Of a stretch of 64,000 nt of DNA, positions 58,443-60,803 are shown piece by piece. The number at the start of each line of letters is the position of its first letter. The stretch's first letter is position 1. The position numbers were made by a program, and so were the translations under genes. Location: positions 62,001 to 126,000 of the forward strand of contig NZ_LLKN01000001.1 in the NCBI RefSeq assembly GCF_002900095.1, given 5' to 3'. The notes beneath the pieces are model-generated. The model saw only the letters and a list, made by a program, of their open reading frames with translations, was not told where the DNA came from and made no database searches. This stretch comes from Salegentibacter mishustinae. Its GTDB lineage: Bacteria > Bacteroidota > Bacteroidia > Flavobacteriales > Flavobacteriaceae.

Positions 58443-59456
58443 ATGCAGGTTGCTGAAAATTTTTCTCTAAAAAATTACAATACTTTTGGAGTAGACGTAA
58501 TGGCCCGTAAATTCATCTCTGTGCACAGCACCGATGAATTGCGTGATGTTTTACAGCAAGCCTATGCTTCAGAAATTTTTGTACTTGGAGGCGGCAGCAA
58601 CATGCTGCTCACCAAAGATATAGACAAAACAGTTGTACATATCGGTTTAAAAGGAATTGAACTTATTTCTGAAAGCCGTGATGAAGTAGTTTTAAAAGTT
58701 GGTGCCGGCGAAAACTGGCACCAATTTGTTTTATATTGTATTGAAAAAGGCTACGGCGGACTTGAAAACCTTTCTTTAATTCCGGGCAATGTAGGAACGG
58801 CACCAGTTCAAAATATAGGTGCTTACGGCGTTGAACTAAAAGACAGTTTTGAATCTTGCGAAGCTATGCGCATTCAAACGCTGGAAATAGACAACTTTAG
58901 CGCTGAGCAATGCGAATTCGGCTACCGAAATTCTGTTTTTAAAAATAAATTGAAAGGAGAATATATTATTACCTCTGTAAATTTCAGACTCAGTAAAAAA
59001 GATCACCAGTTAAGCACTTCCTATGGTGCGATCCAGGCAGAACTGGATAAACATAATATTGAGAAGCCAACGATTAAGAATGTTTCTGATGCGGTTATAA
59101 GCATTCGTCAACAGAAATTACCAGATCCAAGGGAACTAGGAAACAGCGGTAGTTTTTTTAAAAACCCCGTAATTAAGGAAACGGAATTCAAAAAACTGCA
59201 AAAGCAATTTCCTGAAATGCCTTTTTACGCTTTGCACGCCAATCAAATTAAAATCCCGGCGGGCTGGCTTATAGATCAAGCCGGTTTAAAGGGTTACCGA
59301 CAAGGCGACGCGGGAGTGCATAAGAACCAGGCATTGGTTCTCGTGAATTATGGAAATGCAACCGGGCAGGAGATCTTGGCACTTTCCAAAGAAATTCAGA
59401 ATAAGATTTATAAGAAATACGGTATTCAACTCGAGCCGGAGGTAAATGTTATTTAA
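58443..59456 (+). CDS. murB: UDP-N-acetylmuramate dehydrogenase
   Basis: FAD enzyme that reduces UDP-GlcNAc-enolpyruvate in peptidoglycan precursor synthesis. It has 337 residues. The FAD-binding N-terminal part begins FSLKNYNTFGVDVMARKFIS and has VLGGGSNMLLT, GLENLSLIPGNVGTAPVQNIGAYG and CEFGYRNSVFKNKLKG. The C-terminal substrate domain holds the catalytic Ser in LGNSGSFFKNPVI and the HANQIKIPAGWLIDQAGLKG stretch. This is the type I (E. coli-like) form, with the extra Tyr loop. It lies seven bases after the aminotransferase gene. Confidence 0.96.
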   Translation: MQVAENFSLKNYNTFGVDVMARKFISVHSTDELRDVLQQAYASEIFVLGGGSNMLLTKDIDKTVVHIGLKGIELISESRDEVVLKVGAGENWHQFVLYCIEKGYGGLENLSLIPGNVGTAPVQNIGAYGVELKDSFESCEAMRIQTLEIDNFSAEQCEFGYRNSVFKNKLKGEYIITSVNFRLSKKDHQLSTSYGAIQAELDKHNIEKPTIKNVSDAVISIRQQKLPDPRELGNSGSFFKNPVIKETEFKKLQKQFPEMPFYALHANQIKIPAGWLIDQAGLKGYRQGDAGVHKNQALVLVNYGNATGQEILALSKEIQNKIYKKYGIQLEPEVNVI

Positions 59457-59533: not shown

Positions 59534-59541
59534 AAAATATT
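59534..59541 (+). promoter_or_regulatory. Candidate promoter of the TPP riboswitch transcript
   Basis: TATATTTA differs from TAnnTTTG by one base. TTA at 59511-59513 lies 20 bases upstream, near the -33 position. A start near 59548 would place the 5' end just before the riboswitch P1 stem. Confidence 0.4.
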
Positions 59542-59553
59542 CTTATATTTATA

Positions 59554-59634
59554 GAATCAATATCGGGGTGCTTAGGCTGAGAAATACCCGCAAAAACCTG
59601 ATCTGGATAATCCCAGCGTAGGAAATATTGAATC
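59554..59634 (+). ncRNA. TPP riboswitch without a downstream gene
   Basis: The thi-box core is present: GGGGTGC (59565-59571), GGCTGAGA (59575-59582), ACCC, then ACCTGATCTGGATAAT, CCAGCG and TAGGAA. The closing stem P1 is GAATCAATAT (59554-59563) with ATATTGAATC (59625-59634), with one A-A mismatch. The only change from the usual core is TCCCAGCG where TGCCAGCG is common. A terminator follows at 59664-59699, and the next gene is on the opposite strand, so no plus-strand gene is under its control. Confidence 0.9.
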
Positions 59635-59663
59635 TTAAGGACTTCATTGTCTTTTTAAGAGAG

Positions 59664-59699
59664 AGCTTCATTTTCTTTAGAGAGAATGAAGCTTTTTTT
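59664..59699 (+). terminator. Terminator downstream of the TPP riboswitch
   Basis: AGCTTCATT (59664-59672) pairs with AATGAAGCT (59685-59693), and inner bases extend the stem; seven T follow. It is probably the expression platform of the riboswitch or simply the 3' end of an RNA of about 150 bases. Confidence 0.8.
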
Positions 59700-59715
59700 G
59701 TTTCAATATCTTCAT

Positions 59716-59745
59716 AAAAAAACCCGCCAGTTTCCTGACGGGTTT
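59716..59745 (-). terminator. Terminator after the fasciclin gene
   Basis: AACCCG/CGGGTT stem extended by CCAG/CTGa, with a seven-base T run when read on the minus strand. It is 25 bases past the fasciclin stop. Confidence 0.8.
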
Positions 59746-59769
59746 CTTATAATTTTTAATAATGCTGTT

Positions 59770-60387
59770 TTATGAAGCTTTCTTCATTACTACACCATCA
59801 ATAAGGTGTACCATTCCATTAGAAGCTTCAATATCTGTAGCAATAATGGTCGCTGTATTACCATTTCCATCTTTAAGTACAATATTATCACCGTCTTTCA
59901 TAGCGGTAAGTTCTGCACCTTCCATAGTAGCGAAAGTTACTTCTCCGTCTCCGTCTTCTATCATTTGACTTAGATCTGAAGCGGTAATTTCTTTATCTAC
60001 TACGTGATATTTCAATACACCAGCTAATTGATCTTTATTTTCACTCTTCATCAATTCGTCTAATGTTGCTTTATCAACTTTTTCAAAAGCGCTATTTGTA
60101 GGTGCAAAAACAGTATATGGACCTTCATCTTCAGTAAAAGTGGTAGCTAGTTCTGCATTTTTTAGTGCACTAACCAAAGTGCTTAAAGAATCGGTTGCCA
60201 TTGCCTTAGCAGCAATACTGTTAGATTCCATTTCCATACTCTCTTTCTCAGCTTCCATTTCAGCCTGACGCTCTGCTTCTTCCTGCTCCATTTGAGCTTT
60301 TTCTTCTTCCTTCTTCTTATTGTCTTCACAAGAAGTAAAACTGAATGCAAAAGCTGCCAGCAGTATTAATAAAAATTTAGATTTCAT
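59770..60387 (-). CDS. Fasciclin domain-containing lipoprotein
   Basis: Protein of 205 residues from the ATG at 60387 (MKSKFLLILLAAFAFSFTSC), a signal peptide with lipobox Cys20. An earlier Met nine codons upstream is less likely. A charged coiled-coil segment (KKKEEEKAQMEQEEAERQAE, residues about 24-60) links the membrane anchor to one FAS1 domain (70-205: LSTLVSALKNAELATTFTED, GPYTVFAPTNSAFEKV, LKYHVVDKEI, NGMVHLIDGVVMKKAS). FAS1 domains mediate adhesion. The gene has its own terminator. Confidence 0.92.
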   Translation of the reverse strand: MKSKFLLILLAAFAFSFTSCEDNKKKEEEKAQMEQEEAERQAEMEAEKESMEMESNSIAAKAMATDSLSTLVSALKNAELATTFTEDEGPYTVFAPTNSAFEKVDKATLDELMKSENKDQLAGVLKYHVVDKEITASDLSQMIEDGDGEVTFATMEGAELTAMKDGDNIVLKDGNGNTATIIATDIEASNGMVHLIDGVVMKKAS

Positions 60388-60596: not shown

Positions 60597-60803
60597 ATGC
60601 AATTATTTTTAATAACAATTCTACTTTTAGGACTGGCCTTTGCCGGAATCGCCATTAAAATATGGGGTAAGAAAGACGGTAAATTTGCAGGAACCTGCGC
60701 CAGCCAAAGTCCGTTTTTAAATAAAGAAGGTGAAGCCTGCAGTTTCTGCGGAAAAATGCCCGATGAAATGTCTGATTGCTCTGGAGAAAAGAAGGCTAAT
60801 TAG
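60597..60803 (+). CDS. Small membrane protein with four-cysteine tail
   Basis: Protein of 68 residues. One membrane segment (about 2-22, LFLITILLLGLAFAGIAIKI) is followed by a soluble tail containing GTCASQSPFLNKEGEACSFC and later SDCSGEK. The four cysteines (GTC, ACSFC, DC) could bind a metal or an iron-sulfur cluster. The family is known to me only as a flavobacterial membrane or secreted protein without function. A TATTTTTG element (60529-60536) precedes it. It lies five bases before the glycosyltransferase gene. Confidence 0.75.
   Translation: MQLFLITILLLGLAFAGIAIKIWGKKDGKFAGTCASQSPFLNKEGEACSFCGKMPDEMSDCSGEKKAN

Follow-up and report, generated by a model that had tools for sequence, protein, structure and literature searches.

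A TPP aptamer of Salegentibacter mishustinae, located in the 64,000 nucleotides of genomic DNA that were analysed as a whole (the window), is best explained as part of a small-RNA gene and not of an mRNA leader; the finished product would bind TPP and act in trans, and we give this reading a probability of roughly 0.6. Based on sequence comparison, a unit consisting of a putative promoter, the aptamer, a hairpin and a predicted terminator, with no gene attached, is conserved and is found at two kinds of locus. The element is a TPP aptamer and not a cis riboswitch: it is not filed as the latter because no thiamine gene is found downstream on the same strand and no competing expression platform is seen in the folds. 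We infer that the RNA is made, that it binds TPP and that it works in trans.

The element of the window

The predicted transcript runs on the plus strand from the promoter box to the terminator (59556–59700, about 145 nt). The aptamer (RF00059) is found at 59554–59641 of the plus strand by cmscan, by the fold and in alignments A2 and A4. In the cmscan search of the whole window it scores 63.0 bits against a gathering cutoff of 54.3 (E 5.2e-10), and the match is full length (model positions 1–105 of 105). The P1 stem is formed in the fold by 59557–59563 with 59625–59631, CUGAGA is located at 59577–59582, and the pyrophosphate side is canonical (CCUGAUCUGG..CCAGCGUAGG), all on the plus strand; the core corresponds letter for letter to CUGAGA and CCUGAU..GCGUAGG. 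Which aptamer bases contact TPP, and that the GCGUAGG side binds pyrophosphate, is assumed here as established. The fold of the element strand has a z-score of −3.48, an equally good fold being found in 1 of 200 dinucleotide shuffles. The near-canonical thi-box with a closing P1 stem, as given in the preliminary description of this DNA, is thus borne out by the covariance search and by the fold.

In the interval between aptamer and terminator there is a second hairpin, H2 (UCUUAAGGAC-UUCAUU-GUCUUUUUAAGA; 59633–59660, plus strand), whose base is the conserved UCU that follows P1. A local hairpin is present at this position in the folds of all 11 RNAs of the Salegentibacter type (class 1), and compensatory changes are seen at two of its pairs in alignment A2. 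The predicted intrinsic terminator hairpin occupies 59661–59696 of the plus strand (stem core AGCUUCAUUU/AAUGAAGCU, −18.7 kcal/mol) and its T run reaches 59699; as P1 ends at 59631, the terminator stem starts within the 30 bases stated earlier. A simple scan for terminator patterns misses both this hairpin and the one of the neighbouring fasciclin gene, and its total of 5 is little more than expected by chance (3.0 on average, sd 1.6); the call of a putative terminator in the element is based on the fold and on how well the hairpin is conserved among relatives.

A candidate promoter −7 box, TATATTTA, is present at 59544–59551 of the plus strand; it follows TAnnTTTG, the sigma-A type of Bacteroidota, except that its final base is A. 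The passages of PMC9723704 that deal with the −7 box of Bacteroidota place it at −12 to −5, so that the predicted +1 would be 59556, the base just before P1. An exact TAnnTTT[AG] ending 10–16 nt before the GGGTG of the aptamer is found in 39 of the 46 free-standing RNAs of both classes; of 2300 random 45-nt stretches taken from these loci, 113 have the box. The seven RNAs with no counted box include L223, a mis-anchored row in which a box is visible on inspection.

The upstream neighbour is murB (58443–59456, plus strand; Pfam MurB_C, E 5.7e-32). The convergent neighbour is a fasciclin-domain gene (59770–60387, minus strand; Pfam Fasciclin, E 1.4e-32), which by eye encodes a lipoprotein and whose own terminator hairpin is placed by the fold at 59720–59745; a minus-strand gene with its own terminator had also been recognised at first reading. 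No gene is found between aptamer and terminator in the window, and the RNA has no plausible ORF in any of its three forward frames. A start codon within the RNA was considered and rejected, as the frames that begin at the AUG of the terminator stem all vary from species to species (by eye). The mechanical ORF list contains a plus-strand ORF at 59762–59968 (68 aa), antisense within the fasciclin gene, which is not taken as a gene, and Pfam gives no match for the 68-aa ORF at 60597 of the plus strand, in agreement with the thiamine link denied to it before. The preliminary description also proposed a stand-alone TPP-binding transcript of about 150 bases; as a prediction from sequence this has good support in the anatomy of the element and in its conservation, the aptamer scoring above the cutoff, no gene separating it from the terminator and the core being conserved in relatives. 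The second hairpin, the promoter box and the RNAs of other genera (class 2) were not part of that description.

Two other RNA families are matched on the plus strand of the window: the Rfam sRNA family Flavo-1 (RF01705; 33000–33167, 47.7 bits, cutoff 42) and a Bacteroid-trp leader (RF01692; 17392–17511, 70.5 bits).

Distribution of class 1 and class 2

The model R1 was built from ten Salegentibacter units, which match it by construction; the unit of genome G012 was not included. With R1, class 1 is found in 11 of the 15 Salegentibacter genomes at 117–182 bits, the next best match having 53 bits. Ten of the units are located between murB and a fasciclin-like gene (Pfam was applied only to the copy of the window). 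That of G012 is found at an unrelated locus, with a divergent gene on one side and a peptidase M15 gene on the other, and no fasciclin gene is present within the approximately 1.7 kb examined on each side. Its P1 and the core of its terminator arms are unchanged, P4 has a one-sided change and P5 a two-sided one. The genomes with no class-1 unit are G002, G004, G006 and G011, and neither a unit nor a degraded copy was seen in their murB–fasciclin gap. The class-1 terminator pattern occurs at a single place in 11 of the 15 genomes, each time at the class-1 RNA, and is absent from all four non-carriers; it is not merely a common terminator of these genomes.

Between the two main clades of the ten syntenic loci, the RNA is 81% identical, the upstream flank 44% and the downstream flank 40%; the corresponding values of murB are 44% at third positions and 33% at four-fold sites. 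The identity of the RNA, set against the saturated flanks and murB sites, points to strong purifying selection on the RNA. All 11 class-1 RNAs retain CUGAGA and CCUGA; their pyrophosphate side is GCGUAGG in seven (including that of the window), GUGUAGG in three and GCGCAGG in one (G012). In a search of 80 named murB loci with R1 and R2 (the class-2 model, see below), only eight class-1 loci are matched on the element strand at more than 32 bits, the range which this count covers; matches of 33–38 bits on the minus strand are the same palindromic terminators. The RNA is present at the named murB loci L118 and L121, of S. salarius and S. agarivorans. Across 397 Flavobacteriaceae genomes, R1 has matches in 105. 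Loci were available for 30 of these family matches: two were known class-1 units, and the 28 examined comprise six of class 2, the rest being cis by look. L066 and L068, near contig ends, are thiC leaders.

Concerning thiamine genes, none is found among the ORFs within about 1.4–1.7 kb downstream of the class-1 element in the 11 carriers (Pfam for the genes of the window and the G012 peptidase, likeness for the others). A thiC gene controlled by a TPP riboswitch is present in 8 of the 15 genomes, based on the RF00059 search and context, and ThiC was recognised by Pfam in all six of these that were tested. Five of the 11 carriers have such a thiC (G003, G008, G009, G012 and G014), and six have no thiC-type match (G000, G001, G005, G007, G010 and G013), a count in which G013 is 61% complete and matches of 42–45 bits in G001 and G005 are left out (thiC matches have 72–76 bits). 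Among the non-carriers thiC is found in G004, G006 and G011 and is lacking in G002. The presence of the unit does not track the loss of thiC.

These distributions bear on the view that the element is a functionless orphan, left behind when a cis riboswitch lost its thiamine gene, a remnant as the preliminary description put it. A similar-looking terminator arm is present in the thiM riboswitches of two other genera, which are the best R1 matches of the family outside the genus (82.5 and 78.3 bits), and the unit is missing from 4 of the 15 genomes of the genus; both would fit an orphan. Against this stand the strong conservation compared with saturated flanks, the copy at another locus in G012, the four non-carriers with neither a degraded copy in the gap nor the terminator pattern, and the free-standing cases in 24 other genera. 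TPP-controlled thiC alongside the unit in five genomes counts against it as well, and we consider an orphan highly improbable.

Other TPP elements of these bacteria have features of their own. The two others in the genome of the window precede a TonB receptor and a gene of the NMN-transporter family. Several of the Salegentibacter elements before NMN-transporter-family genes (L003, L084-L089) have an aptamer in which about 50–100 nt are inserted between the blocks ACCC and GAACCUGAUC. In the elements of TonB-receptor-like genes (L002, L028, L237, L245, L247), P4/P5 is by eye one continuous helix, e.g. AACCUGGGCAGGUAAUGCUGCCAAGGGA; as the usual GCGUAGG is missing there, the ligand of these TonB-type cis elements may differ from TPP. 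A TPP riboswitch, mostly with a terminator, is found upstream of a methyltransferase gene at L013, L016, L024, L051, L053, L064, L078-L080 and L265, and this gene is followed by an AIR-synthase/ThiL-like gene (Pfam for L016, L053 and L064 only).

Class 2 was first met through R1, as TPP aptamers of other genera which have a different terminator and no thiamine gene. The model R2, made from six class-2 units, was searched over the 397 Flavobacteriaceae genomes, and class-2 free-standing RNAs are found at 35 places in 33 of them, in 24 genera and in varied contexts. All 37 rows with at least 50 bits were examined (35 class 2; two, in G000 and G010, class 1), together with 15 loci and the overlaps with R1 loci from rows below 50 bits; one of the latter, L236, is an unclear variant and is outside all counts. 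Two class-2 RNAs per genome are seen in G222 (L221, L228) and in G278 (L225, L231).

The class-2 terminator is strongly conserved, mostly as CAAAGGGAA...UUCCCUUUG, and compensated variants are present. Of the 14 class-2 genomes tested, 11 have its exact pattern at a single place; the remaining three, whose RNAs have variant arms, lack it. The Rfam TPP model matches all 20 class-2 loci tested at 34–65 bits, six of them above the cutoff. In the model-fitted alignment A5 (30 of the 35 RNAs), changes on both sides are found in 22 of 39 pairs, and the covariation score is 0.335 vs 0.129 in shuffled alignments (no shuffle out of 500 scores as much). With RNAalifold, the MAFFT alignment A6 (also 30 of the 35 RNAs) supports 20 pairs, 11 with double changes; P2, P3, P5 and the terminator are recovered, P1 and P4 are not.

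There is a difference between the classes in the ligand pocket. GCGNAGG is found on the pyrophosphate side in none of the 35 class-2 RNAs, the sole string match (L202) being located at the start of the terminator, so class 2 may bind another thiamine compound, something else, or nothing. The same absence, with the fold retained, would suit a structural RNA that senses nothing, in which the aptamer fold serves as a stable 5′ cap or as a protein-binding scaffold and the ligand is irrelevant. Such an RNA is unlikely given the bases that are kept: CUGAGA and CCUGA throughout class 1, with the GCGUAGG side exact in seven of its RNAs, and CUGAGA and G[AG]UAAU each in 33 of the 35 RNAs of class 2.

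The next ORF of at least 100 aa is convergent in 25 of the 35 class-2 loci; the other 10 have it on the strand of the RNA, with 160 nt or more between it and the end of the match. Among 20 downstream proteins checked, Pfam recognises a peptide-chain release factor, RecG, HisI/E domains, an Asp/Glu racemase, a CLC channel and others; no thiamine gene is among them, and five of the 20 have no match at all. The end of the match lies at most 20 nt from the end of a convergent ORF in 18 of the 35 loci (e.g. L205, L207, L215, L219 and L222), so both transcripts may overlap or interfere.

The surroundings of both classes also bear on whether there is a separate RNA. Since murB has the orientation of the element and is separated from it by some 100 bases (99 in the window; ten loci), the element could be a TPP-sensing terminator or 3′ end element of the murB transcript. 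With a promoter box of its own at a fixed spacing, a divergent upstream gene in G012 and an upstream ORF on the opposite strand in 13 of the 35 class-2 loci, this explanation retains hardly any probability.

Outside the family, no class-2 RNA is found among the examined matches of the model R3 in two overlapping samples, one from the order (395 genomes) and one from the class (295). These wider searches give class-2 RNAs in four genomes, all in the family and all already found by R2. In the R3 search with 37 matches, 30 had loci: 24 were newly examined, four were known class-2 RNAs, one was class 1 (G010), and L258 is the same as L244. The 24 are cis by look, mostly with TonB-receptor-like genes (L269 is cut by the contig end); in the other search the best 10 of 28 matches are all cis by look. 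A common descent of class 1 and class 2 is not established.

Pairing between aptamer and terminator

In cis riboswitches the terminator competes with an aptamer strand, and such an expression platform is not seen in the folds of the free-standing RNAs. When the transcript is cut at the 5′ arm of the terminator and folded, the 3′ strand of P1 pairs with the arm with a probability of 0.00–0.01 in all eight free-standing RNAs, whereas the four cis controls have 0.59–0.82 (thiM) and 0.36 (methyltransferase riboswitch). The median share of the arm that is paired upstream is 0.10 in class 1 (n=11), 0.11 in class 2 (n=35) and 0.55 in the cis riboswitches (n=14), and values above 0.3 are found in 1 of 11, 9 of 35 and 13 of 14, respectively. 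The arm is predicted to be insulated in 36 of the 46 free-standing RNAs. Arm pairing exceeds the mean of shuffled upstream sequences in none of the 11 class-1 RNAs, 5 of the 35 class-2 RNAs and 11 of the 14 cis riboswitches; for this comparison with shuffles a Mann-Whitney test gives p 5e-7, which is overstated because the sequences are related. An antiterminator thus seems to be avoided in the free-standing RNAs, most of which are below the shuffles. Counter-examples include L226, whose arm is 0.69 paired and whose fold has no P1, and the cis control L051 with only 0.10.

The 14 cis controls were hand-picked for a visible terminator before a thiM, TENA/THI-4 (L057) or methyltransferase gene, and the genes of eight were checked with Pfam (L016, L049, L050, L052, L053, L057, L059 and L064). 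The insulation of the arm is a prediction from thermodynamics, with co-transcriptional kinetics and TPP outside the model; on this basis termination looks constitutive. An antiterminator of UUGAAUCU with AGCUUCAU, plausible by eye, would make the element an ordinary attenuator; it was rejected on the partition-function test and its controls.

A further explanation, also raised at first reading, is a TPP-controlled attenuator of an antisense RNA, in which low TPP would lead to read-through across the fasciclin gene. AspocR, given in the parts of PMC8079631 that concern it as a B12 riboswitch on an antisense RNA of Listeria, is similar in that a riboswitch faces a convergent gene. The fasciclin-like gene is indeed convergent in 10 of the 11 class-1 loci, the next ORF of class 2 is mostly so, and the bare duplex of the P1 3′ strand with the arm is possible (−5.2 kcal/mol in L001 and −7.3 in L023, the latter close to the −8.3 of the thiM control L050). 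AspocR needs ligand-gated read-through, and the folds of the window element do not support gating: the pairing of P1 with the arm is almost nil in the eight free-standing RNAs described above, and upstream pairing of the arm is mostly below shuffles. Also, the downstream stretch is only 40% identical between clades, the separate hairpin of the fasciclin gene intervenes, G012 has no fasciclin gene nearby, and the convergent genes vary among class-2 loci. An antisense attenuator is accordingly quite improbable. As a whole, the earlier interpretation is supported for the predicted stand-alone RNA and disfavoured for the remnant and for the antisense effect on fasciclin; the trans-acting RNA is the option left of its list, and the RNA may also be a pure decoy.

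For the small-RNA gene, the steps would be as follows. RNA polymerase would use a promoter of the unit itself (TAnnTTTA) and start where P1 has its 5′ edge, and the transcript, made up of the TPP aptamer and the second hairpin, would stop about 145 nt on at the terminator. The terminator stem would be kept off the aptamer, making synthesis independent of TPP. As the 5′ end is a strand of P1, TPP binding would tie it up; TPP would in this way clamp the 5′ end of the RNA and set its lifetime or shape. The RNA would then act in trans, with another RNA or a protein as its partner, and the contact would probably be made by the sequence-conserved terminator hairpin and, in class 1, by the second hairpin too. 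Conservation is highest in the terminator stem, which is base-paired and offers no obvious free seed; this is a weak point of a simple seed-pairing model, and a protein partner would fit equally.

Extended to the family, the proposal is more tentative, and we put it at somewhat less than even: Flavobacteriaceae may have a family of free-standing, metabolite-sensing sRNAs with TPP aptamers and no expression platform, which would be made and terminated constitutively, the vitamin switching the stability of the finished RNA or its binding to a partner in trans. Class 2, with its altered pyrophosphate side, may in that case sense thiamine or a related compound instead of TPP.

Relation to known riboswitch RNAs

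The closest structures are terminator-type TPP riboswitches in front of thiM in other Flavobacteriaceae (L049, L050 and L052; thiM recognised by Pfam HK), which share with the class-1 element the aptamer fold, the core and the terminator; by eye, a promoter box is present just upstream of P1 in these as well. They differ in that a gene is controlled and antiterminator pairing reaches 0.59–0.82, whereas the class-1 element has no gene and a pairing of 0.00–0.01.

EutX, which we take to be a B12-riboswitch-containing sRNA of Enterococcus, and Rli55 are reportedly the riboswitch-containing sRNAs of DebRoy 2014 and Mellin 2014, both cited in PMC7266159. What the present RNA would have in common with them is that it senses a metabolite, has no coding gene attached and acts in trans. 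In EutX and Rli55 the ligand decides on termination before the ANTAR hairpins that sequester EutV, whereas here termination looks constitutive and the ligand, presumably TPP, would act on the finished RNA; no sign of ligand-gated termination upstream of an effector hairpin is found in the folds. In its section on such RNAs, PMC8079631 describes Rli55 as a B12-riboswitch-containing sRNA that acts in trans, with ligand-gated termination. The same source, where it treats SreA and SreB, presents them as SAM riboswitches acting in trans on prfA, SreA likewise having ligand-gated termination and also controlling an operon in cis. The window element is similar to these as a terminated riboswitch RNA that possibly works as an sRNA, and differs in having no cis operon downstream. 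RZ of Sinorhizobium is a by-product of a cis switch, its function in trans being given as unproven in the relevant passage of PMC9373788.

Barrick and Breaker (2007) noted a handful of high-scoring aptamers away from metabolite genes, and in the passage of PMC2258182 concerned the choice between trans-acting antisense RNAs and recent orphaning is left open. Compared with that handful, the present case comprises a unit conserved within a genus and a second class spread over 24 genera. Among the matches listed in a literature search that had subscription journals and preprints outside its range, no publication deals with free-standing TPP aptamer RNAs of Flavobacteriia. For the window element, the comparison argues against orphaned debris, the question raised in 2007, and a conserved family in cultivated bacteria makes that question accessible to experiment. 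If it is true that the RNA senses TPP after its synthesis, it would be a riboswitch without an expression platform.
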